From assembly GCA_030654015.1 (NCBI GenBank), contig JAURYI010000093.1, positions 1 through 58,523 of the forward strand: DNA of 58,523 nt. The letters run 5' to 3'. Within the stretch, counting starts at the first letter, position 1. Each line of letters opens with the position of its first letter. This DNA is from Methylococcales bacterium. GTDB taxonomy: Bacteria; Pseudomonadota; Gammaproteobacteria; Methylococcales; Methylomonadaceae. The notes below the pieces were generated by a model. It ran no database searches. It worked only from the letters and a program-made list of their open reading frames with translations, and had not been told where the DNA came from. Position numbers and translations under genes: made by a program. Positions 19,159 through 53,396 of the stretch are shown here, in pieces.

Positions 19159-19180
19159 CATTATCATCAAGAGGTACACC

Positions 19181-25181: not shown

Positions 25182-25192
25182 GAGGTGATGTT

Positions 25193-25870
25193 ATGTCTTA
25201 TGTGAATACGCTTTTTTTCGGAATTTATCCCTATATCGCGTTGGCGGTATTTTTCATCGGCAGTCTGTTACGCTTTGACCGCGACCAATACGGCTGGCGT
25301 ACTGGTTCCAGTCAAATGTTACGCGCTGCCGAATTAAAACGCGGTAGCAATTGGTTTCATGTCGGTATTTTACTGTTATTTGTCGGGCATTTTGTCGGTT
25401 TATTAACGCCCGCAGCGGTTTACCATGCGCTTGGCATATCGACTTCTGCCAAACAGATAATGGCCGTTATTGCAGGCGGTGTATTTGGCGGTATCTGTTT
25501 GCGCGGCTTGTGGATTTTAACCAAACGCCGCATGACCGACCCGCGTATTCGCGCCACCAGCACCAAAATGGACATGGCAATTTTACATTTATTATTGGCG
25601 CAATTGGGTTTGGGTTTATTGACCTTGCCGTTTTCTTTGGCGCATTCTGATGGTTCAACCATGCTGCTGTTAGCGGAATGGGCGCAACGGATTGTGACGT
25701 TTCGCGGCGGCGCGGCTGATGTGATTGCCGATGTTAATCTGGTTTATAAAGCGCATATCTTTTTAGGTCTGACAATTTTTGTGGTGTTTCCATTCAGTCG
25801 CTTGGTACACGTCTGGAGTGTGCCGTTGGGTTATGTGCTACGTTCTTACCAGATTGTCAGACAACGCTAA
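25193..25870 (+). CDS. narI: Respiratory nitrate reductase, gamma (cytochrome b) subunit
   Basis: NarI anchors the enzyme in the membrane, oxidises quinol and holds two b hemes. Five helices are predicted in 225 residues. Heme ligands match E. coli: His56 (NWFHVGIL), His66 (FVGHFVG), His188 (YKAHIFLG) and His207 (RLVHVWSVP), shifted by one or two at the C-terminal pair. A GAGG lies before the ATG. It closes the narKGHJI operon; an 18-bp palindrome follows 26 bases later. Confidence 0.97.
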   Translation: MSYVNTLFFGIYPYIALAVFFIGSLLRFDRDQYGWRTGSSQMLRAAELKRGSNWFHVGILLLFVGHFVGLLTPAAVYHALGISTSAKQIMAVIAGGVFGGICLRGLWILTKRRMTDPRIRATSTKMDMAILHLLLAQLGLGLLTLPFSLAHSDGSTMLLLAEWAQRIVTFRGGAADVIADVNLVYKAHIFLGLTIFVVFPFSRLVHVWSVPLGYVLRSYQIVRQR

Positions 25871-26178
25871 CATCAAATAATTTTCCAATCGTGCCTGCAA
25901 GACTATCGCACTTTTTAAGTGCGATAGTCTTGCATTATCAATATGACGTAACTCGCTAAAAACGTTATTAGGACAACCATAGCTTCATGAAAAATAAACG
26001 ATTTCAGGTTTTTCCAATAACGCATTAAATAATAATCTCACCTGATAATTTGTAAAAATATTTACATTGATAAAGCATATAAACTACAAATAACTTCATT
26101 ATAATTCCATATCCCTATGAAAAATAAACAATTATGCTACAATAAATCAGTTATTTTAATTAAAAAAATGGTGGCTTT
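25871..26178. other. Intergenic region, narI to porin
   Basis: No gene is seen. It holds the long palindrome at 25896-25934. Two copies of ATGAAAAATAAAC (25987 and 26116) are of unknown meaning; the second sits in the likely promoter of the porin gene. The region just before the porin is very AT-rich. I see no clear Fnr or NarL box. Confidence 0.5.
25896..25934. repeat. 39-bp perfect palindrome after narI
   Basis: Two 18-base arms (25896-25913 and 25917-25934) pair perfectly around TTT. There is no following T-run, so it is not a standard terminator although it could halt or protect the nar transcript. Its size and AT-rich centre match the dispersed palindromes elsewhere in the window. Confidence 0.7.
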
Positions 26179-27495: not shown

Positions 27496-27876
27496 TTGAA
27501 CAGGCGGTCAATCCGCCGTTTTCTGAAAGCGTTCACAATAAAAAACCCGCTGGCGCAATTCACCAGCGGGTTTTTTATTGCCTGACATTTTTGATAATCA
27601 GCGTAACTCATCATGATAAATACCATCAACGGCTTTCATGGCTTTTTGAGCAGTGAACTTGAGTGATATTGATTCAAATAAGTGCGAAGTTATTGTGACC
27701 GCCCCAAAAAAGATAGTTTTTATATTCAAAAAAACATTTAAAAAGACACCTGATATAAGCCCAACAAATTGATTTTTAAAGACAAATTAATTTATTAATT
27801 TTATGGCACACATAATGCTTGAACAGAAATGAATGTTTAATACATTTTTGTTCGATTATTACTTATTGAGGTCAGT
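27496..27876. other. Intergenic region upstream of the NrtA-like gene
   Basis: Contains the porin terminator, then AT-rich DNA that should hold the promoter of the next gene. TTGAT-TCAA-ATAAG at 27669-27682 matches eight of ten Fnr half-site positions but lies about 200 bases upstream. A minus-strand frame without a start codon is discussed under rejected items. Confidence 0.4.
27541..27576 (+). terminator. Terminator of porin copy 1
   Basis: A 13-bp stem (AAAAACCCGCTGG with CCAGCGGGTTTTT, 9-nt loop) ends in a run of six T on the plus strand, 46 bases after the porin stop. Confidence 0.92.
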
Positions 27877-29259
27877 ATGAAAATTGTTACGTTAAAAAAA
27901 CTAGCCGTCTGCATTGCGGCATCTACCTTGATTTCATTTGGAGGCGTAACAGTTGCGACTGCCGCAAGCAAAGAAAAATTGGAAAAACCCAATCTTAAAT
28001 TGGGCTTTATTAAACTGACTGACATGGCTCCGTTAGCCATTGCTTACGAAAAAGGTTTTTTTAAAGACGAAGGGCTGAATGTACAGTTAGAAGCACAAGC
28101 CAACTGGAAACTGGTATTAGACAGAGTAGTGAGCGGTGAATTGGACGGCTCACATATGTTAGCTCCTATGCCGTTCGGCGCGAGCATCGGCTTCGGCACT
28201 AAAGCCGACATTGTCACTGCCTACACGATGGGTGTAAACGGTAACGCCATTACCGTCTCTAATGATACTTGGAGCAAAATGAAAGCAGGCGGTGCAGGCG
28301 CACATCCTATTTCAGCCGAATCGCTTAAACCCGTAGCTGAAACCTACAAAAACGAAGGTAAAGCCTTTAACATGGGCATGACCTTTCCTGTCGGCAGCCA
28401 CAATTTTAAACTGCGTTATTGGTTGGCGGGTGGTGGTATTAATCCTGGTTATTATGCACCGCCGAATGATGTCTCAGGACAGATTGGCTCTATTGTCATG
28501 TTATCGGTCACACCCCCGCCACAAATGCCCGCAACCATGGAAGCAGGTACTATTTTGGGTTATTGCGTGGGTGAGCCGTGGAATCAACAAGCCGTTGCTA
28601 AAGGTGTAGGCGTTCCTGTCATTACTGATGATGAGATGTGGAAAGACATTCCTGAAAAAGTGCTGGGTGTCAGTAAAGAATGGGCAGAGAAAAATCCTAA
28701 AACCCATGTTGCGGTTGTAAAAGCCTTGATTCGCGCCTCTATGTGGCTGGACGAAGACAATGGTAAAAACCGCCCTGAAGCAGTGAAAATTTTGGCACAA
28801 AGTAAATATGTCGGTGCGGATGAGACTGTTATCGCCAACAGTATGACAGGCACGTTTGAATATGAAAAAGGCGATAAACGCAAGTTACCCGATTTCAACG
28901 TATTTTTTCGTAATAACGCCACCTATCCTTATTACAGCGGTGCAGTCTGGTATCTAACGCAAATGCGTCGTTGGGGACAAATTAACGAATATAAAGAGGA
29001 TGCGTGGTACACGGAAACTGCCAAAAAAGTTCTCAAACCTGATGTGTACATGGCAGCGGCTGATGCACTTGTTAGCGACAACAAAGCCACAGCGGCTGAT
29101 TTTCCTGCCAAAACCGAGACTGGTTTTAAAGCACCGCAAACCTATTTTATTGATAAAGTTGCTTTTGATGGCACAAAACCCAATGACTATCTGGCTAAAT
29201 TTGCCATTGGTCTGAAAGGCAAGCAAGTTGTAGAAGACGGCAGAGTGACCGGCGACTAA
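27877..29259 (+). CDS. NrtA-like periplasmic nitrate-binding protein
   Basis: It resembles the NrtA/CmpA solute-binding proteins of nitrate and bicarbonate ABC transporters. A Sec signal peptide (LAVCIAASTLISFGG to ATAAS) precedes the mature protein, with no lipobox. Family motifs are LKLGFIKLTDMAPLAIAYEKG, EAQANWKLVLDRVVSGELDG, HMLAPMPFGAS, SHNFKLRYWLAGGGINP and GYCVGEPWNQQAV; the Trp, His and Glu in them lie where NrtA holds nitrate. At 460 residues it is full length. No permease or ATPase gene is adjacent, so it is an orphan here. It may serve a transporter encoded elsewhere, or a sensor. Flanking porin copies support a role in nitrate capture; substrate identity is inferred. Confidence 0.85.
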   Translation: MKIVTLKKLAVCIAASTLISFGGVTVATAASKEKLEKPNLKLGFIKLTDMAPLAIAYEKGFFKDEGLNVQLEAQANWKLVLDRVVSGELDGSHMLAPMPFGASIGFGTKADIVTAYTMGVNGNAITVSNDTWSKMKAGGAGAHPISAESLKPVAETYKNEGKAFNMGMTFPVGSHNFKLRYWLAGGGINPGYYAPPNDVSGQIGSIVMLSVTPPPQMPATMEAGTILGYCVGEPWNQQAVAKGVGVPVITDDEMWKDIPEKVLGVSKEWAEKNPKTHVAVVKALIRASMWLDEDNGKNRPEAVKILAQSKYVGADETVIANSMTGTFEYEKGDKRKLPDFNVFFRNNATYPYYSGAVWYLTQMRRWGQINEYKEDAWYTETAKKVLKPDVYMAAADALVSDNKATAADFPAKTETGFKAPQTYFIDKVAFDGTKPNDYLAKFAIGLKGKQVVEDGRVTGD

Positions 29260-29266
29260 ACATACG

Positions 29267-29297
29267 GCTTGGGTTGCCGATTTTGGGCAGCCCAAGC
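29267..29297. repeat. Hairpin between nrtA-like gene and porin copy 2
   Basis: A 12-bp stem (GCTTGGGTTGCC with GGCAGCCCAAGC, one G-T pair, 7-nt loop) eight bases after the stop, without a T-run. It may stabilise the upstream mRNA or reduce read-through into the second porin. Confidence 0.5.
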
Positions 29298-29416
29298 TGA
29301 AATTGCAGTATAAACTCAGGTTTTTAGTGCTACACAAAAAAGCAGCAAACTGATTATTTTTAAGCACGTCGGCATGAAAAATAACTGCTTGCATTTCCAA
29401 TAAAAGAGGGCGTTTT

Positions 29417-30733
29417 ATGCCGAAAAATCAACGAACCACACCGCTATCTGTGGCACTGCTGTCACTGTCAGTTGCCAGTGGCTCAGCTTTGGCTGATGAT
29501 CTAACAAAAACTATTGAAGACGCGCTTAAAATCGGCAGAGACGGCGGTATCAAAATTGATACCCGCTATCGTTATGAATACGTCAATCAGGATAATGTCA
29601 TCAACACGACGACAGGAAGACCGTTAGCGACTGCTGCGCAACCCAAAACCGCCAATGCCAATACCATACGCACACGTTTTGGTGTACTGTCGCCAACCTA
29701 TTACGGTGTACAGGGGTATGTAGAATACGAAGGCACACACGCTTTACAATCCGATTACAATAACGGACGCGGTAATAAACCGTGGTATTCAGTGGTTGCT
29801 GATCCTGGTTACAATGAACTCAATCAGTTATGGCTGAGTTATTCGGGCATTCCTGATACCGTTATCAAAGGCGGGCGGCAACGCATTAAATTTGATGATG
29901 ACCGTTTTATCGGTAACGTCGGCTGGAGACAACTGGAAACCACTTTTGATTCAGTATTAATTACCAATAAATCCATTAACCATCTGGTTATTAATGTCGG
30001 TTATATCGGTAACGTCAATAGCTTTACCGCCACTACTGAACACATTAATGCCCCAATACTTAACCTGAATTACAATCTTGGCGATTACGGTAGAATGATT
30101 GGTTATGGCTACTGGTTGGGCTATACCGATATGGATACCACTGCTAGAGGCGGCTCAACGGCTTCTAAATCCAGTCAAACTTACGGTTTGCGTTTTATTA
30201 ATCCAGACAAACCGAAGAAATTTTTTGATCATTACAGCCTGCTGTACACGGCTGAATGGTCTATTCAAAAAGACTACCTCAACAGCCCTGTCAATTACAC
30301 CGCTAATCGTTTTAACGTGATGGGTGGTTTTACCGCCTATAACTTCAGCTTTCAAGGCGCGATGGAACAGCTGAACGGTCATGGTGTCAATCAAGCCTTT
30401 CAGACTCCACTGGGTACTAATCACGCCTTCCAAGGCTGGGCTGATTTATTTCTGGTTACGCCTAAAGACGGTATTCGTGACGTGTTCGGCACAGTGACAG
30501 GAAAATTTCTGGAAAATGACAGCCTTGTCATTTCTGGGACTTTTCATGCTTTTTCTGATGACACTGGTAACATTAATTACGGCAGAGAATGGGATTTTCA
30601 AGTAGAGCAAAAATTCGGCAAACATTATTCTATCTTAGCTAAATATGCTTATTTTGATAATGCAGGCAGTCGCTTTGGTGGCAATGCCACAGATACCCAA
30701 AGAATCTGGGTACAGGGTAACATCAGCTTTTAG
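29417..30733 (+). CDS. Outer-membrane channel, alginate-export-like, copy 2
   Basis: Paralogue of 26179-27495 with the same 438-residue length, a matching signal peptide (PLSVALLSLSVASGSALA) and the same C-terminal aromatic end (VQGNISF). Long stretches are identical, for example the segments around GGRQRIKFDDDRFIGNVGWRQ and NHAFQGWADLFLVTPKDG. Differences concentrate in probable surface loops such as the region after YGYWLGYT. A GAGGG precedes the ATG. It follows the NrtA-like gene by 157 bases and may share its transcript. I infer a second channel with altered selectivity. Confidence 0.8.
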   Translation: MPKNQRTTPLSVALLSLSVASGSALADDLTKTIEDALKIGRDGGIKIDTRYRYEYVNQDNVINTTTGRPLATAAQPKTANANTIRTRFGVLSPTYYGVQGYVEYEGTHALQSDYNNGRGNKPWYSVVADPGYNELNQLWLSYSGIPDTVIKGGRQRIKFDDDRFIGNVGWRQLETTFDSVLITNKSINHLVINVGYIGNVNSFTATTEHINAPILNLNYNLGDYGRMIGYGYWLGYTDMDTTARGGSTASKSSQTYGLRFINPDKPKKFFDHYSLLYTAEWSIQKDYLNSPVNYTANRFNVMGGFTAYNFSFQGAMEQLNGHGVNQAFQTPLGTNHAFQGWADLFLVTPKDGIRDVFGTVTGKFLENDSLVISGTFHAFSDDTGNINYGREWDFQVEQKFGKHYSILAKYAYFDNAGSRFGGNATDTQRIWVQGNISF

Positions 30734-43490: not shown

Positions 43491-44012
43491 TTATTTTGAC
43501 CACGGTAAATCCGCATGGTTGTCTAATTGGCGACTGCCGTGACGAAGAGATAATGCGTGTCCATTGACTCCAAACAATAAAAATACGATAACACCCAAGA
43601 TAAAAATCCAGGCTTGCGCAAGTTGCAAGCCATACGGAATGGGGTTGACACTGAGCAGTAAAGCCAGCACCACCAATGAAGGTACTAACCCGAACACAAT
43701 AATCAGCGCGATAATAAATACAGGCTCTTCCGCGCCAGAAGGTTTTGTATGCGCAAATCCTGAAACGACTTTAATAATGGTTTGCCCGAACAGTACCGCT
43801 GAGCCAAAAGATAATTCAGGCGATTGAATGATCGCAAACACTGATCTACCAACACTCACGTCAACAATTGAAATCACCACCAACGGCAATATGATAAAAA
43901 GTAAATCGCCCAAGATGGCATACATTGCCGCCTTTCGATGTGGCTGTTTATCGCTGTCACCGTTAGCATTTCCGAATAAATCTTTAATCATTTGACGAAA
44001 CCTCTTTCTCAT
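43491..44012 (-). CDS. Uncharacterised four-helix membrane protein
   Basis: The 173-residue protein has a basic N-terminus (MRKRFRQMIKDLFG), then four hydrophobic segments near 31-52, 66-90, 97-121 and 130-150, and a polar C-terminus. I do not recognise a named family. The start has a moderate purine-rich site (GAGGTTTCG region). It lies between the first DUF3096 gene and the DUF883-like cluster, in the same orientation, which suggests a role with these envelope proteins. Confidence 0.65.
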   Translation of the reverse strand: MRKRFRQMIKDLFGNANGDSDKQPHRKAAMYAILGDLLFIILPLVVISIVDVSVGRSVFAIIQSPELSFGSAVLFGQTIIKVVSGFAHTKPSGAEEPVFIIALIIVFGLVPSLVVLALLLSVNPIPYGLQLAQAWIFILGVIVFLLFGVNGHALSLRHGSRQLDNHADLPWSK

Positions 44013-44071
44013 ATTTTCAAGTATTACGGAAGTGTCAAACTGATTGGCATTGAATCTCAGACGAATATTAA

Positions 44072-44461
44072 TTATGGATTCGCCTTTGTTCGCTTTGCAT
44101 CATTCGCCTTCATAGACGGTTCAAACTCATTTGTTTTATAACGGGACGTTAGCATCAAGACCAAGGGCAAAGCGGCATATAAGGTTCTCGCTGAACCGAC
44201 AAGACTAAGTGCGACTTTTAACGGCGATGTTTCCGTAGCGTTTGGATTATCAGCGGTGCTACAGCCTTTCTGAGTCAGTTCGCCCGCTATAAAGCCGATA
44301 CCGACCGCTAGCAGCAAGTTGGCAGGTTTAGCCATTTGCTGCTGTATTTTTCCAGCCAGAGCATGAGCGCGACTATCAACAGCGTTTTGATGGTTTAGTA
44401 TTTGCTGCCCGGTGTTCTTGATTTCGGTATTAATCGAAGCGGGCTTAAAGTAATGAGTCAT
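44072..44461 (-). CDS. Small envelope protein with one central helix (YqjK/DUF883-like context)
   Basis: The 129-residue product has a helical N-terminal half with many Gln and Ala, a Gly-containing hydrophobic segment (NLLLAVGIGFIAGELTQKG, about 48-66) and another near 85-105. The layout recalls proteins of the yqjDEK group, but I cannot name the family. Its ATG overlaps the stop of the YqjE-like gene by four bases, so they are coupled. Confidence 0.65.
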   Translation of the reverse strand: MTHYFKPASINTEIKNTGQQILNHQNAVDSRAHALAGKIQQQMAKPANLLLAVGIGFIAGELTQKGCSTADNPNATETSPLKVALSLVGSARTLYAALPLVLMLTSRYKTNEFEPSMKANDAKRTKANP

Positions 44462-44898
44462 AATAATTTATCCGTATCCCTGTGCGTTGGCGGCATAGGT
44501 TTAACACTACCGAGTAGAGCTGGAAATTGGAGATAATGACTCTTGCGACGTATCACGCCACAAAGAAGCAAAGCAATCAGCAAATTGACTATAACAGCAA
44601 GCAGGATGGCGGTACTCGCCACCATGCCCTGCTCTATCATCATCAGTACAGCGGCAACCATAAGTCCCAGCCACGCACCAATCATTAACACCGCAACCAT
44701 CACGCCTGCAATAATCATAGTCACCAAGCTTTCGCCTGCCCGCCGCGCTTCTAAGACGGCAAGCTGAAGGTATTCATAGATTAAGCCCTGCAGTTCATAC
44801 CATAATAACTGGATATCATCCAACACATTAGAACCGATGGGGTCATTATGCGTTGCAGTTTGCTCAATCGTTGCATCATTGGCGGCGTTCGGTTTCAT
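44458..44898 (-). CDS. YqjE / phage-holin-3_6-like membrane protein
   Basis: The 146-residue protein shows the usual layout of YqjE-type (DUF1469) proteins. An amphipathic N-terminal helix (LLWYELQGLIYEYLQLAVLEARRAGE) is followed by two strongly hydrophobic segments (about 58-85 and 91-115) with Gly and Ala, and a polar tail. In many proteobacteria yqjE lies with DUF883 genes (yqjD), as here. Despite the holin-like domain name it has no lysis genes around it. Confidence 0.75.
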   Translation of the reverse strand: MKPNAANDATIEQTATHNDPIGSNVLDDIQLLWYELQGLIYEYLQLAVLEARRAGESLVTMIIAGVMVAVLMIGAWLGLMVAAVLMMIEQGMVASTAILLAVIVNLLIALLLCGVIRRKSHYLQFPALLGSVKPMPPTHRDTDKLL

Positions 44899-44910
44899 AA
44901 TGGCGGCTAT

Positions 44911-45147
44911 TTAACGACGGCTTAAACCTAACAAGCTGCCCACCAAAAAACCGGTGGCGGCGGCAATACCCAATGATGTCACTGGGTTGGTGCGGACATA
45001 GCTTCGGCAACTTTTCGCTGCGTACTGTTCTGCGCGTAATATTTGTTCGCTTCTTTCATCAAACGCGGCTCTGGCCTGATGACCTGCACTGGTAATAGTA
45101 TCTGCGGCATCTTGTGCAAAATGGGCTACTTTATCTGCTGTGTTCAT
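44911..45147 (-). CDS. DUF883 (YqjD/ElaB-like) protein, copy 1
   Basis: A 78-residue helical protein with a C-terminal membrane anchor. The helical part DKVAHFAQDAADTITSAGHQARAAFDERSEQ is typical (seen in parts), followed by YVRTNPVTSLGIAAATGFLVG and LLGLSRR. E. coli YqjD and ElaB are stationary-phase proteins of the inner membrane that bind ribosomes. Its paralogue is at 45243. Both belong to the same minus-strand group. Confidence 0.88.
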   Translation of the reverse strand: MNTADKVAHFAQDAADTITSAGHQARAAFDERSEQILRAEQYAAKSCRSYVRTNPVTSLGIAAATGFLVGSLLGLSRR

Positions 45148-45185
45148 AATAAGTTTCTCTTCTGTGATTTTTATATTGAGATAAC

Positions 45186-45217
45186 AGACCTTTGAGGTTT
45201 TAAATATCTCAAAGGTT
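45186..45217. repeat. Palindrome between the two DUF883 genes
   Basis: Arms ACCTTTGAG and CTCAAAGGT around an AT-rich centre with TTTTAAA; a member of the same dispersed palindrome type as 51064 and 55602 but with a different stem sequence. Confidence 0.6.
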
Positions 45218-45242
45218 TATGTTCCCGTTTTAAATTGCTGAA

Positions 45243-45476
45243 TTAACGACCGCTCAGCAGGCGGCTTAATAAAAAACCGCCCGCGACCGCAATACCCAAT
45301 GATGTCACTGGATTTTCGCGGACATAAGTTTGGCAATTTTTTATCAATTGTTGCTCGGCGTTCATTATTTGATCGCTTTTTTCATCAAACGCGGCTCTGG
45401 CATGATTGGACGCATCTGCAAGCGCATCCACTGTCTCATGTGCAAAGTCCGCTACTTTGTCTGTAGTCGTGTTCAT
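45243..45476 (-). CDS. DUF883 (YqjD/ElaB-like) protein, copy 2
   Basis: A 77-residue paralogue of the gene at 44911: TDKVADFAHETVDALADASN, then YVRENPVTSLGIAVAGGFLL with the same C-terminal anchor. I start at 45476 (MNTTTDKV), which has AGAGGA about seven bases upstream; the longer frame adds ten residues. The duplicate shares about half its residues with copy 1. The second position in the group suggests co-expression with copy 1. Confidence 0.88.
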   Translation of the reverse strand: MNTTTDKVADFAHETVDALADASNHARAAFDEKSDQIMNAEQQLIKNCQTYVRENPVTSLGIAVAGGFLLSRLLSGR

Positions 45477-45515
45477 GGTTGGTTCCTCTTGTACGTTAGT
45501 GTTCATAATATTTCT

Positions 45516-45830
45516 CTATTTAAGACGCATATCGTTTTTAACGGAAGTCACACCTGTGACACTACGCGCCACGTTAACGGCTTTGTTAATATCGGCTTTA
45601 GAATTGACAAAACCACTGAGTTGAACTACGCCTTTAAACGTTTCAACGTTAATCTCGGCAGAACTCAGGCTGGGCTCGTTCAAAATAGCTGCCTTCACTT
45701 TGCCGGTCACAACGCTGTCGTCAACGTATTCGCCAGTACCTTCCTGCTTCGAGGTGGATGCACAACCGCCTGCCGTTAGTAACGTCAGGGTTAAAAAGAA
45801 GGCGGCAAAAAATCTAGTAAAGTGTTTCAT
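45516..45830 (-). CDS. BON-domain lipoprotein (OsmY-like)
   Basis: A 104-residue lipoprotein. The signal peptide MKHFTRFFAAFFLTLTLLTA leads to lipobox TAGGC with Cys23; the +2 residue is Ala, which fits outer-membrane sorting. One BON domain follows: YVDDSVVTGKVKAAILNEP, then AEINVETFKGVVQLSGFV, then AVNVARSVTGVTSVKNDM. BON domains bind phospholipid, and OsmY-type proteins respond to osmotic stress. I start at 45830, where GGAG stands before the ATG. Confidence 0.9.
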   Translation of the reverse strand: MKHFTRFFAAFFLTLTLLTAGGCASTSKQEGTGEYVDDSVVTGKVKAAILNEPSLSSAEINVETFKGVVQLSGFVNSKADINKAVNVARSVTGVTSVKNDMRLK

Positions 45831-45889
45831 GGATAAATCTCCAAATAATAAAAAATAACTGTCGAGTGCCCGTGAATGACTTGCAAAGG

Positions 45890-46303
45890 TCAGCCTTGAG
45901 GCCAAGTGAAAGACAGCGAAGTTCTGTGCTTTCCACCTACTGTTGCTGTTTTACGAACGACTCGCCCATCTTGATTAGCAGTCACGATGTAACGCCCAGC
46001 CTTAAGATTGGCGAAGAGCTTAGGACCATCGGCAACCGTGTCTAAATAAACGTTGCCGCTTGTGTCTGTGATAGTGACTTTCACGTCACTGAGATATTCG
46101 CCTGTTCCCTGCACGGAGAATAACAAGCTCACGTTATAGTCCGACTGCATGGCTCGCAGGGTATTTTGTTCATCAATACCCACACCGCCACTGACAAAAC
46201 TTACGTCGCCTTGGGTTTGCGGCTGGAGACCTGATTGTTCTGCAAGCGCAGGAAAGCTGGACAGGACGCAGGGAAGAACAAGTGCTAAATATAATTTTTT
46301 CAT
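45890..46303 (-). CDS. Exported protein with carboxypeptidase-regulatory-like domain
   Basis: The 137-residue protein starts at 46303 with AAGGAG nine bases upstream. A signal peptide (KLYLALVLPCVLSSFPALA) is followed by a beta-rich domain: YNVSLLFSVQGTGEYLSDVK, TDTSGNVYLDTVADGPKLF, ANLKAGRYIVTANQDG. This is the pattern of transthyretin-like/carboxypeptidase-regulatory folds found in periplasmic proteins. Function unknown. The same-strand BON lipoprotein follows by 59 bases. The phrase GTGEY recurs in that neighbour, by chance or by shared motif. Confidence 0.78.
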   Translation of the reverse strand: MKKLYLALVLPCVLSSFPALAEQSGLQPQTQGDVSFVSGGVGIDEQNTLRAMQSDYNVSLLFSVQGTGEYLSDVKVTITDTSGNVYLDTVADGPKLFANLKAGRYIVTANQDGRVVRKTATVGGKHRTSLSFTWPQG

Positions 46304-46355
46304 GGTAATTACTCCTTGAGGGTAAACATTAACAATCTTGAATTGCGGATTAAAT

Positions 46356-47972
46356 TTATTGGTGCATGGTTTTAAGCGCGTTGAACAGCACAGCAACATC
46401 GTGCTGTCCTTTAAATACAGGTGGAATCTCTTTTTCAAGATTAAGCAGCTGGCAGACTGCTATCAGTGCCGATCTTATGGAGTATTCAACGGTAAACACC
46501 ACATCATCGGGAATTTCACAAAACTGCCCGATAAAGGCGAAATTTTGCGCACCCGCAGGTACGACATCGGGTCTGTCGCCTTTCACTCTGGGCAGAAATT
46601 GGCTGGTGATGAACGGCATAAGGCACGGTATGCAATTGGCTGTCTTGATAATGGACTCCGCCTTATTACCCAGTTTGAGGTGCTGAAGTAATTCCATGAG
46701 AATCTCCTCACCCGTACAATAAGTCATGGGCTTGTTGACGAAATTACCGTAGCGGTCTGGAAATAAGCCATACCCCCAAAAGACGAAAGTATTGTCAGGT
46801 TGATTGATAAAATGCGGCTGATGCGCCAGCACGATACTCATAAACCAGTTGGAATCGACCAAGGTAACCAAGCCGCCCGTCCCTGCCTCATTACCTGTAA
46901 AATCTTCTATGAGCTGAAAAAAGGCAGGCTCATTGAGCGTTACGGTGAACGATTGCCACTTGCTGTGTTTAATATGATTGGCAAACACATCGGGGTGTCC
47001 GAAGCCAGGGCGACCGTTGGCAATGTCTTCCCATAAACTCCATGCGCCCCCTGTTTGTCTGGAATTTAAAATGGCAGGGGTGTTCATAGAGCCAAGACTA
47101 GATCCTTCGGTCATACAGCCCAATGTGACGAATAACAAATCTCGGTTTGCCAAGGCGATGGTGTTATGTTCACCGTCACAAGTGTAACGAACCCGTTTCA
47201 CGGATCGGCAGCCGTTGCCTAAATCAAAATCAACGTTCGTGACTTTTGCATCCAGCAGGAAATGTACGCCCTGCTCTTTTAGCCACGTCATCAACGGCAG
47301 TACCATCGAATCATACTGATTGTATGGTGTACGCCAGACCCCGCCCATTTCGTTAAAATCAGGAAATAATTGAATGAAGCGCAACAAATAACGCTTGAGT
47401 TCGACCACACTGTGCCAAGGCTGAAAGGCGAACATCGTTGCCCACATCAGCCAAAAATTGTGCTGGAAAAATTCGGGAGAAAACCAGTCTTCTATGCGTT
47501 TTGCTCCAAGCGAATCCTCGGAGTGGATAAGCAGTGCGAGCAAATCCAGCCGATCTTTTTCACTCAAATCAAACGAGGAAACATCAATCTTTTCGCCATT
47601 TTTCACTAAACGACAGCGCGATTTGGTGACATATTTATCGCTGAACTCAAAAATTTCATCTTTGACGCTTTTGGTGTGGTCAGTTAATGCGGGAATACTG
47701 GCAAACAGATCGTAAGTACACGCATAGTGTTCTTCAATCATACGACCGCCCCGAATCACATAACCTTTATCCGCTGACCCTGCACCGTCCAGACTGCCAC
47801 CGATGACCTTAAGCTCTTCAAAAATATGAATGTTGTCGCCAGAGAACGCGCCGTCGCGTATTAAAAAAGCAGCGGCAGCAAGAGACGCTATTCCGCCGCC
47901 GACAAAATACGCCTTTCGGTTGTTATTCTGAACCACGGTGTTTTCAATATTTGTTTTCTGTTTATGCGACAT
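46356..47972 (-). CDS. Oleate hydratase (myosin-cross-reactive antigen family)
   Basis: FAD-dependent hydratase that adds water to cis-9 double bonds of fatty acids to make 10-hydroxy acids. The 538-residue protein has the Rossmann motif VGGGIASLAAAAFLIRDG near residue 25, FEELKVIGGSLDGAG and RGGRMIEEHYACTYDLF with the conserved Glu-Glu-His. WFSPEFFQHNFWLMWATMFA, ETDG-type loops and IPDDVVFTVEYSIRSA follow. I start at 47972, eight bases after AGGA. It stands within the stress island, 52 bases before the exported protein gene. Such enzymes detoxify unsaturated fatty acids; the native role is not known here. Confidence 0.92.
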   Translation of the reverse strand: MSHKQKTNIENTVVQNNNRKAYFVGGGIASLAAAAFLIRDGAFSGDNIHIFEELKVIGGSLDGAGSADKGYVIRGGRMIEEHYACTYDLFASIPALTDHTKSVKDEIFEFSDKYVTKSRCRLVKNGEKIDVSSFDLSEKDRLDLLALLIHSEDSLGAKRIEDWFSPEFFQHNFWLMWATMFAFQPWHSVVELKRYLLRFIQLFPDFNEMGGVWRTPYNQYDSMVLPLMTWLKEQGVHFLLDAKVTNVDFDLGNGCRSVKRVRYTCDGEHNTIALANRDLLFVTLGCMTEGSSLGSMNTPAILNSRQTGGAWSLWEDIANGRPGFGHPDVFANHIKHSKWQSFTVTLNEPAFFQLIEDFTGNEAGTGGLVTLVDSNWFMSIVLAHQPHFINQPDNTFVFWGYGLFPDRYGNFVNKPMTYCTGEEILMELLQHLKLGNKAESIIKTANCIPCLMPFITSQFLPRVKGDRPDVVPAGAQNFAFIGQFCEIPDDVVFTVEYSIRSALIAVCQLLNLEKEIPPVFKGQHDVAVLFNALKTMHQ

Positions 47973-48322: not shown

Positions 48323-48472
48323 TTACAGGACTCGTCGCCCTTGGATAACACGCAATAGAATGATGACCACTGCGACAACTAATAAAATGTGAATAAATCC
48401 GCCCATTGTGTAGGCAGAGACTAGGCCGAATACCCAAAGGATAATCAGAATAAGAGCGATAGTTTCAAGCAT
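48323..48472 (-). CDS. lmo0937-family small membrane protein
   Basis: A 49-residue protein starting at 48472, where GGAG lies eight bases upstream. It has two hydrophobic segments: MLETIALILIILWVFGLVSA, then the signature YTMGGFIHILLVVAVVIILL and RVIQGRRVL. This matches the lmo0937/DUF5670 type of tiny membrane protein, frequently listed next to CsbD and BON genes. Function unknown. Confidence 0.87.
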   Translation of the reverse strand: MLETIALILIILWVFGLVSAYTMGGFIHILLVVAVVIILLRVIQGRRVL

Positions 48473-48542
48473 GACTGCTTCTCCGTTAGAGACCGTCAAA
48501 TGACGGTGGTGTGAACTGTGATAAAAAGATGGCATCTTGTTG

Positions 48543-48583: not shown

Positions 48584-48760
48584 TTAGATACTGTCTTTAA
48601 TATCTTCTTTTAAATCGCCAATGCCCGATTGAACCTTGCCGATATTTTTTTGGACATTGCCTTCCAGCTCTAACTCCTTGTCATCCAATATAACGCCAGT
48701 CGCTTCCTTGACTTTGCCTTTGGCTTCTTCGATTTTGCCTTTTACTTGATCTTTATTCAT
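48584..48760 (-). CDS. CsbD family stress protein
   Basis: A 58-residue protein read directly from the bases. It begins MNKDQVKGKIEEAKGKVKEA and ends SGIGDLKEDIKDSI, the repeated K-G-K-x-x-E-A pattern of CsbD/YjbJ proteins. It is highly charged and has no hydrophobic segment. CsbD proteins are general-stress proteins of unknown action; E. coli YjbJ is among the most abundant stationary-phase proteins. A GAGACTGTC site precedes the ATG. A GTACG-N4-CGTAC palindrome lies 108 bases upstream. Confidence 0.92.
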   Translation of the reverse strand: MNKDQVKGKIEEAKGKVKEATGVILDDKELELEGNVQKNIGKVQSGIGDLKEDIKDSI

Positions 48761-48867
48761 GACAGTCTCCTGATGAGTTGGCTATGACCGAATGGTAATA
48801 ACCGAAGCGTGGAACATTGATTCCCAGTGCTTGACCTAGATAATACGCATAAAATTTAAGGTAGTCG

Positions 48868-48881
48868 GTACGGTAACGTAC
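48868..48881. promoter_or_regulatory. Palindromic operator candidate A
   Basis: GTACG-GTAA-CGTAC, perfect 5-4-5 palindrome, about 108 bases before the csbD start and just past the DUF3096 stop. Read on the minus strand it contains GTACGTTACCGTAC, matching copies B, C and D over the centre. Confidence 0.6.
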
Positions 48882-48916
48882 ACAACTTGAATAAAACTGG
48901 GATTTTGATAGTGGTT

Positions 48917-49060
48917 TTATGTAAGAGTGACGTGGTGCATCAACCCCATAATACCCACAACAATCAAGTAGATAGCCACAAAATAATTTAAAAATCGTGG
49001 CACTAATAAAATTAATATACCGACGATAAGAGCCAGTAAAGGTTCAATAGCAAGATTCAT
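48917..49060 (-). CDS. DUF3096 family small membrane protein, copy 2
   Basis: A 47-residue protein read directly from the bases: MNLAIEPLLALIVGILILLV, then PRFLNYFVAIYLIVVGIMGL. GGAG stands before the ATG. It shares most residues with the copy at 43314, and the DNA is also similar over the core, so the duplication is fairly recent. Palindrome B lies 66 bases upstream of its start. Confidence 0.88.
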   Translation of the reverse strand: MNLAIEPLLALIVGILILLVPRFLNYFVAIYLIVVGIMGLMHHVTLT

Positions 49061-49125
49061 GAGACATTCTCCTTAAGTGAAAAAACTGTGCAAATCCAGC
49101 GTAGCGACATGAGCGAATACAGTCT

Positions 49126-49139
49126 GTACGTTGTCGTAC
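49126..49139. promoter_or_regulatory. Palindromic operator candidate B
   Basis: GTACG-TTGT-CGTAC, perfect arms, extended by T and A to TGTACG/CGTACA. It lies 66 bases before the second DUF3096 gene (minus) and 183 before the first Crp/Fnr gene (plus), so it could serve either. Confidence 0.65.
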
Positions 49140-49222
49140 ATAAACCCATGATGCTGACATTTAGTCACTACTTACACAGTGAAAATTCAAAAATATTTAA
49201 CGACTTCGAATATTTAATGCTC

Positions 49223-49244
49223 TTATGTTCGGTAGCGAACATAA
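49223..49244. promoter_or_regulatory. Palindromic operator candidate E, Crp/Fnr gene promoter
   Basis: Nine-base perfect arms TTATGTTCG and CGAACATAA around GTAG; the core GTTCG-N4-CGAAC (49227-49240) has the same 5-4-5 geometry as copies A-D. It lies 82 bases before the ATG of the first Crp/Fnr gene, which fits autoregulation. Confidence 0.6.
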
Positions 49245-49321
49245 AGAAAGCCATTGAACTTATATAATCATAGAATTTCATAAATATTTAACTCTTAGCG
49301 CACACATAGAGAACTCACATA

Positions 49322-50050
49322 ATGAATAGCACCCATAGCCCCAAACAAAACCATCTGCTTGCCGCATTGCCAGAAGAAGAATATGAATTTCTTTTCCCGC
49401 ATTTGGAAGCAGTTAAGATGCCGCTGGGCGAAGTGATTTATGAGTCAGGTGGCGAATTGCGCTACGTTTATTTTCCCAGCACCTGTATCGTCTCGTTGCT
49501 GTATGTCATGGAAAATGGCTCGTCTGCTGAAATTGCCGTGGTCGGCAATGAAGGCATTATCGGTATTGCCTTGTTTATGGGCGGCGGCTCGATGCCGAAT
49601 CGGGCAGTGGTACAAAGTGCGGGTCATGCTTATCGCTTGAAAGGCTCATTGATAAAAAAGGAGTTTGCTCAAAACGGCCCGATGATGCGTTTGTTATTAC
49701 GCTATACACAGGCATTGATTACCCAAATGGCACAAACGGCGGTGTGCAATCGACATCACTCCATAGACCAGCAACTGTGTCGCTGGTTATTGCTCAGTCT
49801 TGATAGGTTGCCCTCCAATAAATTAACCATGACGCAGGAATTGATTGCCAATATGCTAGGGGTGCGCCGTGAAGGTGTCACGGAGGCGGCAGGAAAATTA
49901 CAGCAGGCAGGTTTGATTCATTACAGTCGCGGACAGATTATCGTGCTGGATCGCGCTGGATTAGAAGAACGAGTTTGTGAGTGTTATCAAGTGGTTAAAA
50001 CCGAAACTGACCGCTTGCTCCCCGCGCTTCCTGTGATAGCTAGACTATAA
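49322..50050 (+). CDS. Crp/Fnr family transcription regulator, copy 1
   Basis: The 242-residue protein has an N-terminal cyclic-nucleotide-binding-like beta-roll (LGEVIYESGGELRYVYFP, then VGNEGIIGIALFMGG, about 30-110). A long dimer helix follows, then a winged helix with TMTQELIANMLGVRREGVTEAA (about 175-196, seen in parts). The phosphate-binding cassette of Crp (RSA-type) is not evident, and no Fnr cysteines are seen. It ends with DRAGLEERVCECYQVVKTE, a Cys-x-Cys motif shared with copy 2. This subfamily is frequent next to small stress genes. It is followed by copy 2 after a hairpin gap of 172 bases. Confidence 0.92.
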   Translation: MNSTHSPKQNHLLAALPEEEYEFLFPHLEAVKMPLGEVIYESGGELRYVYFPSTCIVSLLYVMENGSSAEIAVVGNEGIIGIALFMGGGSMPNRAVVQSAGHAYRLKGSLIKKEFAQNGPMMRLLLRYTQALITQMAQTAVCNRHHSIDQQLCRWLLLSLDRLPSNKLTMTQELIANMLGVRREGVTEAAGKLQQAGLIHYSRGQIIVLDRAGLEERVCECYQVVKTETDRLLPALPVIARL

Positions 50051-50067
50051 ATCAATTAATTAATGTG

Positions 50068-50105
50068 CGCTAACACACCGATAGTAATGCGTTTGTATGT
50101 TAGCG
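50068..50105. repeat. Inverted repeat between the two Crp/Fnr genes
   Basis: Arms CGCTAACA and TGTTAGCG separated by 22 bases, 17 bases after the stop of copy 1. It may be a weak transcription end or regulator site; no T-run follows. Confidence 0.4.
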
Positions 50106-50222
50106 TGGCGGTCTGGCTGATTGAACAATGTGCCAGACAATGACCGGCATCAGGATTTCTTCCGCTTGAAACTCTTGTATACACCCTTGTCGGGTTTTAC
50201 AAATATCACAGGAGAGCATCCC

Positions 50223-50972
50223 ATGTTACCTACTTTAGAAAGCCACTCGACCAATTTGCTGTTAGCCGCTCTACCTCAAAAAGACCGTGACGCGCTACTG
50301 AGCGATTGCGAGCAAGTGGAACTGGTTTTTGCCGAAGAACTGTATCGTGCGGGCGACATCATCCCGCACGTTTACTTCCCCATTAAAGGATTTATTTCCT
50401 TGATAATGCCTGTTGACGATGACGCAAATCTGGAAGTCGGACTCAGCGGCAACGAAGGTATGTTAGGTATCACCTTAATACTGAACATTGATGTTGCCCC
50501 TTTCCACTCTCTGGTACAGGGCGCAGGGTCTGCATTTCGCATCAGCACCGCCTTATTTCGCCATCACTTGGCACGCAGTCCCGCACTGCAAAAGCTATTA
50601 ACACGTTACCTGTATGTGACCATCATGCAACTCGCGCTCACGGGAGCGTGTACGCGCTTTCATCTGGTAGAGGCGCGCCTTGCTCGCTGGCTGTTAATGA
50701 CGCAAGACCGTGCGCACTCCAGTCATTTTCATATTACCCACGTTTTTTTGGCTTATATGCTGGGTGTACGGCGCGTCGGCATCACTAAAGCCGCGACTTC
50801 GCTGCAAAAGAGAAATCTCATCAGCTATCGGCGTGGGAATATCACCATTCTGGATCGTGCGGGCTTAGAAGCCGCTTCGTGTAGCTGCTATCAAGTAAAT
50901 AAAGAGACCTATCAAGAGAGTTTAGGTCGCACTGCGGAGGATGAATTATTATTGCCAGTCACGGTTGAATAG
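50223..50972 (+). CDS. Crp/Fnr family transcription regulator, copy 2
   Basis: A 249-residue paralogue of copy 1. I start at 50223 (MLPTLESHSTN), nine bases after AGGAG; the upstream frame has no ribosome site. The beta-roll has LYRAGDIIPHVYFPIKGFIS and GLSGNEGMLGITLIL; the winged helix has HVFLAYMLGVRRVGITKAAT with the same MLGVRR-x-G-[VI]-T recognition segment. The end DRAGLEAASCSCYQVNKE repeats the Cys-x-Cys-Tyr-Gln-Val motif. The very similar recognition helices suggest overlapping operators. Confidence 0.92.
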   Translation: MLPTLESHSTNLLLAALPQKDRDALLSDCEQVELVFAEELYRAGDIIPHVYFPIKGFISLIMPVDDDANLEVGLSGNEGMLGITLILNIDVAPFHSLVQGAGSAFRISTALFRHHLARSPALQKLLTRYLYVTIMQLALTGACTRFHLVEARLARWLLMTQDRAHSSHFHITHVFLAYMLGVRRVGITKAATSLQKRNLISYRRGNITILDRAGLEAASCSCYQVNKETYQESLGRTAEDELLLPVTVE

Positions 50973-51063
50973 ATTCAAAAAACGGTAGCCCTAGTAATTT
51001 TTATAGCTTGATATGGCGGAGTACAAACTCAGTAGTCAGTCCATTTTACCGACGGTGCGATAG

Positions 51064-51096
51064 AGACCTGCGAGGTTTTTAAAACCTCGCAGGTCT
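51064..51096. repeat. Dispersed palindrome, AGACCTGCGAGG type
   Basis: Perfect arms AGACCTGCGAGGTTTT and AAAACCTCGCAGGTCT around a central T. Near-identical units lie at 36458 and 55602. Confidence 0.85.
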
Positions 51097-51183
51097 ACCT
51101 AGACACTTATACAAGAAGCATCAGCTTTGATTTTTTTCGTGCTTTTCGTGGACTATTGCTTCTTCATGTAACATCAGATACTG

Positions 51184-51214
51184 AATCTGCGAGGACTTAA
51201 AGACCACGCAGATT
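51184..51214. repeat. Palindrome variant, AATCTGCG type
   Basis: Arms AATCTGCG and CGCAGATT with inner GG-CTT / AAG-CC pairing, immediately downstream of the DUF1207 gene on the minus strand. It is a diverged member of the AGACCTGCGAGG family and could act as its terminator. Confidence 0.6.
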
Positions 51215-51232
51215 TTATCACTGCCTGTGTTG

Positions 51233-52369
51233 CTAGAAGTGGTAATGCAAGCCTAAGCCCAAATATTCCACTTTGCTTTTATAAAACTGTCCGCTTGGTG
51301 TGAAGCCGTTATAGTATTCCGCCATAAGCTGTAGCTTTCTGCTTAACACTTGTAACTGTTCAAACTCAACACCTGCTCTGGCTGATACGTCGGTACTCCA
51401 GTTATTTTCTTCAAAATTCTTGATGTCAACGGCGGCAATAGGTCGCATTGAGGCAAAATCAATACGCCACGGACTACGAAACTCAATCCCCGACTGTGCC
51501 GACCACGTTTTAAGATTACTGGGTTCTTTATGAAATATCCCGCCACCGCCGCCATAAATACGCACGCCATAAGGCAGTTCATAAGACAGTTTTAAATCTG
51601 CCCCTTCATAACTGAGGTTCACACGCTGAAATTTTGTGTTTTCCATGCGCAACAGAAATTCATCACCAAGGTGTGAGCTTTGATGATAGACCCGTCCGAA
51701 TGCTGAAAATTGACCCGCACGAACGCTTGAATACAGCGAGGCGATAAAGTCGGTGTTAAGTAAATCAGCCGATGGTGCACCCAGATTAAAATCACTGAAC
51801 ACCCCGCCTTGAATACCTGTTTCAATTTGTGCCAGCGAATTACCAATGTTAGTGCGATAGAACGGTATCGTTTCTCCAAAACTCACGGATGCTATATTTC
51901 TGCCATCAAAATTATTGCTTTGGTAATTACGATAAGCGACTGAAAAATGCGCCCAACGCGGATCAGCGATTAAGGGTTTAAATAAATGCCCTCTGGGTAA
52001 TAAGCCGTTGGGTAATACCGCTGTGCCGTTTTGGGACAGATTTTGATCGTTGGGCGGGCGGGCGGCTTCCTCGTCAGAGGTCGTTGCAAACGCTGGATTA
52101 CTGGCATCGGCTATTTTTACCGCATTAACACCCGGTATTTCCGATAACATCTGCACAACTTTGCCTTCATCGGCAGACGCTACGCTACCGACGGGTAGAA
52201 AAATCACGCCATTTTTTACGGTCAGGGTTCGCGTATCCAGCTTTAAATTTTGTTTTAATACCCCCGCCGCGTAACCTGCAATGTAAGTGTCATCATGAGG
52301 GGTGGCATAGGCAGAAGAAACGGACGACAGCATCACGCCTAACGTGGTTAGTACTCGATAATAATTCAT
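51233..52369 (-). CDS. Outer-membrane protein: BON domain plus DUF1207 barrel
   Basis: The 378-residue protein has a signal peptide (VLTTLGVMLSSVSSAYA) and a short BON-like domain (GYAAGVLKQNLKLDTRTL, then VQMLSEIPGVNAVKIAD, about 30-90). From about 125 it is a DUF1207 barrel: GHLFKPLIADPRWAHFSVAY, ASVSFGETIPFYR, FGRVYHQSSHLGDEFLLRM and a final aromatic FHYHF-like end (LHYHF). DUF1207 proteins are predicted outer-membrane beta-barrels of unknown role. Joining BON to DUF1207 would let one protein link periplasmic lipid sensing to the outer membrane. Palindrome C lies 160 bases upstream. Confidence 0.8.
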   Translation of the reverse strand: MNYYRVLTTLGVMLSSVSSAYATPHDDTYIAGYAAGVLKQNLKLDTRTLTVKNGVIFLPVGSVASADEGKVVQMLSEIPGVNAVKIADASNPAFATTSDEEAARPPNDQNLSQNGTAVLPNGLLPRGHLFKPLIADPRWAHFSVAYRNYQSNNFDGRNIASVSFGETIPFYRTNIGNSLAQIETGIQGGVFSDFNLGAPSADLLNTDFIASLYSSVRAGQFSAFGRVYHQSSHLGDEFLLRMENTKFQRVNLSYEGADLKLSYELPYGVRIYGGGGGIFHKEPSNLKTWSAQSGIEFRSPWRIDFASMRPIAAVDIKNFEENNWSTDVSARAGVEFEQLQVLSRKLQLMAEYYNGFTPSGQFYKSKVEYLGLGLHYHF

Positions 52370-52528
52370 TGTTTTTACTCAGGTAGGATTACAAGCATTT
52401 CGCTGTGTATTGACTTTTTTTGCCTGTGTTGTTTTTATGCCGCATTGCTTAGAAAAATACTTGATTGAAATCAAGCGCGGCACACTGAAAAATGGTGTGA
52501 ATACTGGCGAAGAGCCTGAATATTGTCG

Positions 52529-52542
52529 GTACGTTGCCGCAC
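52529..52542. promoter_or_regulatory. Palindromic operator candidate C
   Basis: GTACG-TTGC-CGCAC, one mismatch in the right arm, 160 bases before the DUF1207 gene. The preceding bases TCG match copy A. Confidence 0.5.
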
Positions 52543-52560
52543 CTAATTTTTAAATGAGGG

Positions 52561-52619
52561 CTATCGCTCCCATGCCCTGATTTAACAGCGCATACTCATG
52601 CTCAGGGCGTGGGAACGAT
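52561..52619. repeat. Long imperfect hairpin downstream of the collagen-like gene
   Basis: Outer arms ATCGCTCCCATGCCCTGA and TCAGGGCGTGGGAACGAT pair with a few mismatches around about 22 bases. It lies between the collagen-like gene and palindrome C. The ends ATCG/CGAT recall the hairpin at 43025. It may end the collagen-like transcript. Confidence 0.55.
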
Positions 52620-52665
52620 ATAAACTTTGTTGCTATTTGACTGATATATTCAGTCGGTCACGCTA

Positions 52666-52974
52666 TTATTTAGGCGCAGCAGGTGCATCGGGTGCAGCAG
52701 GTGGCGCAACAATGACAGTCGTATCACCCGACGCGCCAGTGTTGCCTTTGCCGCCTTCAGCACCTTGTGTGCCTGTTTTTCCTTGACTGCCTTGGTTACC
52801 TTGGTTACCTTGGTTTCCCTGATTACCTTGAGCACCATCATTGCCCGTTTTGCCCGCAGCACCTGTAGCACCAGCAGGGCCTGGGACGGGGACATTGACT
52901 ACTTGGGTTTTATCGTCACAGGCAGTAATGGATAGTGCAGTAAATAGTGCTGCTGTTATTATTAAACGTCTCAT
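52666..52974 (-). CDS. Collagen-like lipoprotein
   Basis: A 102-residue lipoprotein. The signal peptide RLIITAALFTALSITA ends in lipobox ITAC with Cys19; residue +2 is Asp, which in enteric bacteria retains lipoproteins in the inner membrane. Residues 32-82 form 17 consecutive Gly-X-Y triplets, first GPAGATGAAGKTGND, then four GNQ units, then GSQGKTGTQGAEGGK. The tail is Ala-Pro rich. Gly-X-Y runs form collagen triple helices, here perhaps stabilised by Gln and Thr instead of hydroxyproline. Palindrome D lies 126 bases upstream. Confidence 0.85.
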   Translation of the reverse strand: MRRLIITAALFTALSITACDDKTQVVNVPVPGPAGATGAAGKTGNDGAQGNQGNQGNQGNQGSQGKTGTQGAEGGKGNTGASGDTTVIVAPPAAPDAPAAPK

Positions 52975-53396
52975 GATAAATCCTTTAAAAATAGAAAGTT
53001 GGGTGGCGGGTGTTTTTGAGGTGTTCGCGAACAGACCGCTATGGCTGGTAATACCTTTGAGGTACAGTCACAGCATAGGGATATGTGATATACATTTCAG
53101 TACGTTACCGCACACAGAAGAAAATAAACTTTTATCCTGTGGGGAAATTAAAGTGATGATAAAACAGAGATGTTTAAACCTGTTTAAGCATGACTGGCAG
53201 TCATTAATTGCCGTAACAGACACCCGCTATTATTTGTGCGGCATTTGTTGGGCGAATGTTGTGCTTGTAAAAATCTCATCTTGAGATACTATAGCCTCAG
53301 TCGTCAAAACAAACGTTGAGCGAGTTTTTGAATTGAACCCTAGCAGGGAGTGAGAATTGAAAATGATGAATAATTTTTTATTAAAAGGTTATCAAT
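52975..53396. other. Intergenic region between the collagen-like gene and higB
   Basis: No gene is seen in these 422 bases. It holds palindrome D at 53100-53113, the spacerless palindrome TGTTCGCGAACA at 53022-53033 and a core palindrome ATGACTG-G-CAGTCAT near 53190. A promoter for the toxin-antitoxin pair must lie in the last 100 bases, which are AT-rich. Confidence 0.5.
53100..53113. promoter_or_regulatory. Palindromic operator candidate D
   Basis: GTACG-TTAC-CGCAC, one mismatch in the right arm, 126 bases before the collagen-like lipoprotein gene. Its left arm and spacer are identical to the minus-strand reading of copy A. Confidence 0.5.

Follow-up and report, generated by a model that had tools for sequence, protein, structure and literature searches.

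The 58,523-nucleotide (nt) stretch of Methylococcales DNA analysed here (the window; the whole genome, G000, comprises 3.66 Mb in 141 contigs) carries a group of short inverted repeats around two tandem Crp/Fnr genes and several genes for small stress proteins, which raises the question of what binds these repeats and with what effect. Five such palindromes, GTACGGTAACGTAC, GTACGTTGTCGTAC, GTACGTTGCCGCAC, GTACGTTACCGCAC and GTTCGGTAGCGAAC, had been pointed out in an initial annotation of the window, and all of them were verified at their coordinates (Table 1). The first four lie upstream of minus-strand genes whose starts are 66-160 bp away (csbD 108, DUF3096 66, DUF1207 160 and collagen-like 126 bp), and the fifth lies 82 bp ahead of the ATG of the first Crp/Fnr gene. 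Based on the sequence comparisons described below, the palindrome is proposed, with a probability of roughly 85%, to be the operator of a Crp/Fnr subfamily that would activate, from a class II position, genes for small stress and envelope proteins and also the two Crp/Fnr genes themselves.

The loose pattern of the initial annotation, GTWCG-N4-CGWAC, was rejected as evidence on its own, because with one mismatch allowed it occurs 7 times in the window against 4.5 expected, and 15 of 100 shuffles reach 7. The spacers of the first four palindromes read TTAC, TTGT, TTGC and TTAC, as claimed, if the strand is chosen for each so that it begins with TT; read in the direction of the genes, they are TTAC, ACAA, GCAA and GTAA, a preference for NYRN. 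The refined motif GTDCG-NYRN-CGHAC (GTDCGNYRNCGHAC), of which the palindrome ahead of the first Crp/Fnr gene is a regular member, occurs 5 times in the window against 0.17 expected, a number reached by none of 100 shuffles, and all 5 sites fall in 48.8-53.2 kb. The whole genome holds 17 refined sites, 5 of them inside these 4.3 kb, and 13 matches to the reversed-pattern control; owing to the weakness of this own-genome control, the conclusions rest on spacer scans and on counts across genomes. A sixth, one-off site, GTGCGCTAACACAC, absent from the initial annotation, precedes the second Crp/Fnr gene, and TAGCGT sits at class II distance from it (window 50065-50106).

The motif was rediscovered around orthologues of the first Crp/Fnr gene (copy 1). 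The family set consisted of 80 stretches of up to 20 kb, one from each of 78 other genomes of the methanotroph family (out of 81 with the regulator; G002, G086 and G146 were left out) and two from paralogue loci of the own genome. When all 1024 five-base arms were scanned in this set at spacers of 0-10, GTGCG-N4 ranked first (29 copies in 23 loci), GTACG-N4 ninth (23 copies) and GTTCG-N4 18th (20), the remaining arms of the top 18 being A/T runs and arms such as TGCCG, CCGGC, CATGG and TTGCC. The combined arms GT.CG-N-CG.AC occur 213 times at spacer 4 versus 3-24 times at 12 other spacers, the spacer favours NTAN or NYRN, and position 3 is A, G or T (profile frequencies 0.32, 0.37 and 0.30), with C very rare. 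Alignment of 235 site-gene pairs by their conserved downstream gene, with orientation taken from 18 clusters of open reading frames (ORFs) selected among 30 listed, extended the site to a 20-bp palindrome, T(A/C)T-GTDCG-NYRN-CGHAC-A(G/T)A; outside this site and a -10 element, no conservation was found in the profile except weak T-rich positions preceding the -10. Compared with this profile, the consensus of the initial annotation proved too narrow at position 3 and did not include the flanking TNT...ANA bases, a spacer preference or the link to a -10. The 14 bases of the csbD site also precede a csbD gene in another genome (G025), and the genome-wide, related-genome and footprinting checks suggested with the initial annotation, run in reduced form, were positive.

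The same arms recur outside the methanotrophs. The outside set comprised the 71 loci that remained of a collection of 80 after 9 methanotroph loci, some of them from genomes counted before, had been set aside; their labels include Nitrosomonas, Cupriavidus, Paraburkholderia, Pseudomonas and Halomonas. In these loci the arms occur 161 times at spacer 4 versus 16-40 times at other spacers.

The second conserved element of the 235-pair profile consists of T36, A37 and T41, counted from the first G of the site, which corresponds to a sigma70 -10 hexamer (TAnnnT) beginning 22 bp past the site end. Among 233 unique pairs, 116 have TAnnnT starting at offset 36, against a mean of 4 and a maximum of 14 at other offsets and 22 at offset 37. 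In an orientation-free count, which takes both directions of every site and is independent of the chosen ORF clusters, 148 of 416 site ends in the family set have TAnnnT at this offset (mean elsewhere 6.5; 28 at offset 37), as do 54 of 278 in the outside set (mean elsewhere 2.4), compared with 4 of 192 and 4 of 402, respectively, for wrong-spacer controls. A conserved -35 was not found, the commonest offset of TTGACA-like sequences (5 of 6 bases) falling inside the site, in 11 of 233 pairs. With the -10 at 36-41, transcription would start near position 48, which places the site centre at -41.5; with the start site so inferred, the layout is that of a Crp/Fnr class II activator promoter. In the window, four of the five refined sites have TAnnnT exactly at offset 36 toward the nearest gene, the exception being that of the DUF1207 gene, and in the own genome 10 of the 17 sites have it in at least one direction. 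The window was scanned with a 48-bp matrix trained on 145 promoters taken from other genomes (among them L120, a locus from the same genus), and the six best places are the six sites of Table 1. Reverse readings of four such sites come next, followed by a place scoring -5.8; the maximum in the reversed window is -1.7.

Because a site centred at -41.5 covers the -35 position, steric repression would be physically possible, and the protein might repress these promoters from a site overlapping the -35 region. Repression is nevertheless considered unlikely, since the lack of a conserved -35 hexamer is typical of activator-dependent promoters and NtcA activates from the same place (accessible text of PMC3898017). 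The centre at -41.5, the -10 spacing and the missing -35 together suggest that the protein works as a class II activator.

The number of sites follows the regulator gene. Regulator presence in the family, defined as a copy-1 match at E<1e-40, divides 201 genomes into 82 with and 119 without, and the mean raw number of sites of GTDCGNTANCGHAC is 9.09 and 0.95 per genome, respectively; the mean is higher with the regulator in all 11 genera that include genomes of both kinds. Two regulator genomes, G068 and G158, have no more than 2 sites, and the relatives that they hold are only 55-56% identical. In the outside loci, site density per 100 kb is 18.9 in the first 500 bp from the regulator and 17.0 in the next 500 bp, and falls to 3.2 at 4-6 kb and 4.5 at 6-8 kb; a site lies up to 400 bp upstream of the regulator gene in 19 of 71 loci and up to 400 bp downstream in 6 of 71. 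Class-wide, with regulator presence set at E<1e-50 and two family members set aside, the mean is 3.39 sites with the regulator (n=33) versus 1.03 without (n=286), the controls being 1.82 and 1.72.

Several results weigh against the proposed explanation. The reversed control also differs between family genomes with and without it (3.65 vs 2.56, p 7e-5), and the counts per genome are not corrected for genome size. Ten of the 119 family genomes without a detected regulator have at least 3 sites and five have at least 6 (G153 11, G224 8, and G064, G113 and G220 6 each); the regulator gene of G153 is apparently cut off by a contig end, G224 and G220 are 89% and 80% complete, and G064 and G113 stay as exceptions. 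The class-wide medians are only 2 and 1, and 8 of 286 non-regulator genomes have at least 5 sites. In the all-arm scan of the outside loci, G+C-rich arms lead and GTGCG-N4 is 13th, and at 8-10 kb from the regulator site density there rises once more, reaching 10.8 per 100 kb compared with 8.1 for the control. With regard to the promoters, 7 of the 17 own-genome sites, including 3 that lie within long ORFs, lack TAnnnT at offset 36 either way, the -10 stands at offset 36 toward the regulator gene for only 8 of the 46 sites that precede it, and the training promoters of the 48-bp matrix had been pre-selected for a -10. The 49227 site, present in G002, is degraded in G004, a genome of the same genus as the window's. 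Finally, 76 family genomes carry both the regulator and CsbD, 6 only one and 6 only the other, and a simple regression gives the two presences similar weight. Since they are nearly collinear, the effects of regulator and stress island cannot be told apart by counts within the family alone, and co-occurrence across genomes was rejected as proof of the binder.

This collinearity, together with the ability of both Crp/Fnr genes to carry the site themselves, could also be explained by a different regulator that accompanies the stress island and binds the site, the Crp/Fnr genes being only fellow targets. Such a regulator is improbable in our estimate, because the geometry of a 14-bp inverted repeat at a class II position is of the Crp/Fnr type and because, outside the family, the site is densest beside the regulator and is still found in the 35 regulator loci without any of the ten stress families tested (7.5 per 100 kb, compared with 11.3 in the 36 loci that have them). 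The regulator separates from the stress families better outside the methanotroph family than inside it. The local Crp/Fnr regulon that the initial annotation had postulated is supported on three counts, namely the way site number follows the presence of copy 1, the density peak at its gene outside the family and the fixed position of the -10, and we infer that the binder is the Crp/Fnr protein.

Both proteins match HTH_Crp_2 (PF13545; 58.4 bits for copy 1 and 56.4 bits for copy 2, cut-off 27). Copy 1 also has an N-terminal cyclic-nucleotide-binding-like domain (PF00027; 31 bits, cut-off 27.5), for which no match was found in copy 2 in the profile search. The predicted fold of copy 1 (model confidence pLDDT 84, pTM 0.82) is like those of CRP, GlxR, FNR and NtcA, and the fold matches listed share 13-20% identity with it. 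In 75 of 85 copy-1-like proteins, these being the ones caught by the search expression, the recognition stretch is GVRRE[GS][VI]T; in copy 2 it reads GVRRVGIT. Residues invariant in both alignments include C142, R144, H145, H146, C153, C219, E220, C221 and Y222; the invariant Cys/His residues may sense the signal, for which a redox or metal signal is one option. Copy 2 belongs to the same HTH family and the same cluster, and a copy-2-like gene is present in 22 of 81 loci, so that copy 2 rather than copy 1 might be the main binder. This reading is considered unlikely, with chances slightly lower than those of the two alternatives above; against it stand 23 genomes in which the copy-1 search gave one match and no copy-2-like gene was detected, and which still average 6.6 sites. 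Joint action of the two copies is possible. That the palindromes arose by chance or represent a repeat family such as a repetitive extragenic palindromic (REP)-like element is scarcely credible even though the loose pattern is not significant in the window, given the excess of the refined motif and the absence of conservation past the site and -10 apart from the weak T-rich positions, and the repeat element was rejected on its spacer-4 specificity and the fixed -10 spacing.

Two more copy-1 paralogues occur in the own genome (G000:C67:1144-1872, 69% identical, and G000:C119:25768-26457, 68% identical), and no exact refined site was found on their contigs. In a metagenome-assembled genome, a locus labelled Klebsiella pneumoniae (a label that is possibly wrong) repeats the arrangement, with DUF4398, BON, CsbD, YqjK and DUF883 genes, a site pair and two tandem Crp/Fnr genes. 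PAS/GGDEF/EAL proteins adjoin tandem regulators in two non-methanotroph loci (among L285:11960-17988, L243:11587-13653 and L186:11008-13113), and one of the target clusters of the methanotroph family includes a PAS hybrid histidine kinase; a cyclic di-GMP (c-di-GMP) or phosphorelay input to the regulator is a possible lead.

In the proposed mechanism, a dimer of copy 1, or of a close paralogue, would bind the 20-bp palindrome and, from its centre at -41.5, with the sigma70 -10 22 bp downstream and no conserved -35, would exert class II activation. It would turn on csbD, DUF3096, DUF1207 and the collagen-like gene and, beyond the window, a csbD pair (C103) and two PRC-barrel genes (C69 and C98) that also have a site plus -10. 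The regulator would also drive its own gene and that of copy 2, resulting in positive autoregulation and feed-forward. Forward promoters of this kind are predicted before 15 of 21 copy-2-like and 26 of 83 copy-1-like genes elsewhere, versus 34 of 300 random ORFs of the same loci. The autoregulation of copy 1 asserted earlier is accordingly only partly borne out by the data: a perfect TATAAT at class II distance from the 49227 site speaks for it, and the degradation of that site in G004 and the low share among copy-1-like genes speak against it.

Site-plus-TAnnnT promoters number 236, of which 148 come from the family set of 80 loci, 54 from the outside set of 71 and the rest from the window and from loci that overlap in part with the family set, and 146 have an ORF in one of 32 listed clusters. 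With each family named from the Pfam match of one member (that of DUF883 being just under the cut-off), the target loci in family and other sets, respectively, are CsbD 21 and 4, BON 14 and 3, regulator 7 and 5, DUF883 11 and 0, squalene-hopene cyclase 10 and 0, DUF3096 6 and 1, DUF3309 6 and 0, PRC-barrel 6 and 0, RlpA-like (DPBB_1) 4 and 0, and collagen-like 4 and 0. Squalene-hopene cyclase has the site and -10 at L125:10989-12962 and in nine more family loci, which would tie hopanoid synthesis to a Crp/Fnr regulator. Near position 1501 of locus L206 (G000:C104:20170), a refined site lies at the start of a 505-residue ORF with no Pfam match, before a divergent ORF, with TATGCT at offset 36 toward the 505-residue ORF.

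Table 1. Predicted sites, promoter elements and genes of the putative regulon in the window.
Feature	Position	Strand	Basis
Predicted activator site of csbD, GTACGGTAACGTAC (gene-oriented GTACGTTACCGTAC)	48868..48881	-	matrix 42.5, rank 1
csbD -10 hexamer TATTAT, 22 bp past site	48840..48845	-	sequence
csbD (CsbD-like, PF05532), predicted target	48584..48760	-	57.2 bits, cut-off 40
DUF5670 (lmo0937-like) small membrane protein, downstream of csbD	48323..48535	-	domain match
Predicted activator site of DUF3096 gene, GTACGTTGTCGTAC	49126..49139	-	matrix 38.9, rank 2; conserved in G002, and in G004 (same genus) apart from one spacer change
DUF3096 gene -10 hexamer TACGCT	49098..49103	-	sequence
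DUF3096 small membrane protein, predicted target	48917..49060	-	domain match
Predicted site of first Crp/Fnr gene, GTTCGGTAGCGAAC	49227..49240	+	matrix 23.9, rank 5
First Crp/Fnr gene -10 hexamer TATAAT	49263..49268	+	sequence
Crp/Fnr copy 1 (P0001), most likely binder (predicted)	49322..50050	+	HTH_Crp_2, cNMP_binding, CRP-like fold, site counts
Predicted one-off site of second Crp/Fnr gene, GTGCGCTAACACAC	50065..50078	+	matrix 23.3, rank 6
Second Crp/Fnr gene -10 hexamer TAGCGT	50101..50106	+	sequence
Crp/Fnr copy 2 (P0002), probable regulon member, possible co-regulator	50223..50972	+	HTH_Crp_2 only
Predicted site of DUF1207 gene, GTACGTTGCCGCAC	52529..52542	-	matrix 26.0, rank 3; -10 position CAGTAT, not TAnnnT
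DUF1207 protein, predicted target	51233..52369	-	domain match
Predicted site of collagen-like gene, GTACGTTACCGCAC	53100..53113	-	matrix 25.8, rank 4
Collagen-like gene -10 hexamer TATGCT	53072..53077	-	sequence
Collagen-like protein, lipoprotein-like start (our reading), predicted target	52666..52974	-	Collagen repeat

The DUF5670 gene is possibly on the csbD transcript. Elsewhere in the window, DUF883_C, Phage_holin_3_6 and BON genes at 43491-46438 resemble the rest of the stress island and have no high-scoring site, and ORFs at 16378-30733 read by eye like nitrate transporters, narGHJI and two similar outer-membrane proteins.

CsbD, BON/OsmY, DUF883, DUF3096, DUF3309 and DUF5670 small proteins recur in stress islands, and to our knowledge little is known about how such proteins are controlled in bacteria other than those with RpoS or sigma-B. 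With the site defined and its distance to the -10 fixed, the regulon becomes predictable from sequence in many genomes, and an unnamed Crp/Fnr subfamily gains a predicted function and a link to squalene-hopene cyclase. As a tentative extension, which we regard as rather less probable than its converse, the subfamily might be the master activator of a general envelope-stress programme in many Proteobacteria, including methanotroph hopanoid synthesis. It would then fill the role that RpoS or sigma-B play elsewhere by means of a class II promoter code of its own, and would sense its signal with the invariant Cys/His residues instead of a cyclic nucleotide or an iron-sulphur cluster of the FNR type.

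Among known systems, the lxa locus of Burkholderia cenocepacia encodes stress proteins activated at low oxygen, including a BON-domain protein, and the Crp-family protein BCAM0049 is named as its potential regulator (accessible text of PMC6127331 and PMC3759415). BCAM0049 is described in that text as an Anr-like oxygen regulator, and the lxa locus was rejected as the same system and kept only as a lead; the words motif and palindrom are absent from the main text of PMC3759415 in its accessible form. Likewise, Fnr and Crp occur in the accessible main text of neither of two methanotroph hypoxia papers (PMC6977074, PMC12607906). A description of such a regulon was not found in the searched open-access literature, where an existing one may have been missed.

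FNR recognizes the core TTGAT-N4-ATCAA, which has a 14-bp layout and is used from a class II position, and CRP recognizes TGTGA-N6-TCACA. The proteobacterial FNR/ANR and CRP proteins resemble the present system in their fold, and FNR also in its 14-bp core layout and class II position, but these consensus sites differ from the GTDCG-NYRN-CGHAC of the 235-pair profile. P0001 contains no cysteine before residue 55 and hence no FNR-type N-terminal cluster, and at the position where a cAMP (cyclic AMP) cassette usually carries Arg-Ser/Thr it reads Arg94-Ala95.

The promoter layout is shared with NtcA, the nitrogen-control regulator of cyanobacteria, whose canonical promoters carry GTAN8TAC centred at about -41.5 and a TAN3T -10, from which position NtcA activates (accessible text of PMC3898017). 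The A-variants of the present site contain GTA-N8-TAC, and NtcA structures are among the fold matches of copy 1. Judged by GTAN8TAC plus TAN3T, the layout is common to both systems and GTA is found only in part of the sites, in line with the frequency of A at position 3. In contrast to the NtcA site, the present one depends on CG in the inner part of its arms and tolerates A, G or T at position 3, and the two proteins score 24.4 and 20.9 bits with the NtcA equivalog model, below its cut-off of 244.95. The predicted targets are stress and envelope genes rather than nitrogen genes. Taken together, the results point to a predicted class II Crp/Fnr regulon, well supported by sequence, that would be known in kind and new in its site.

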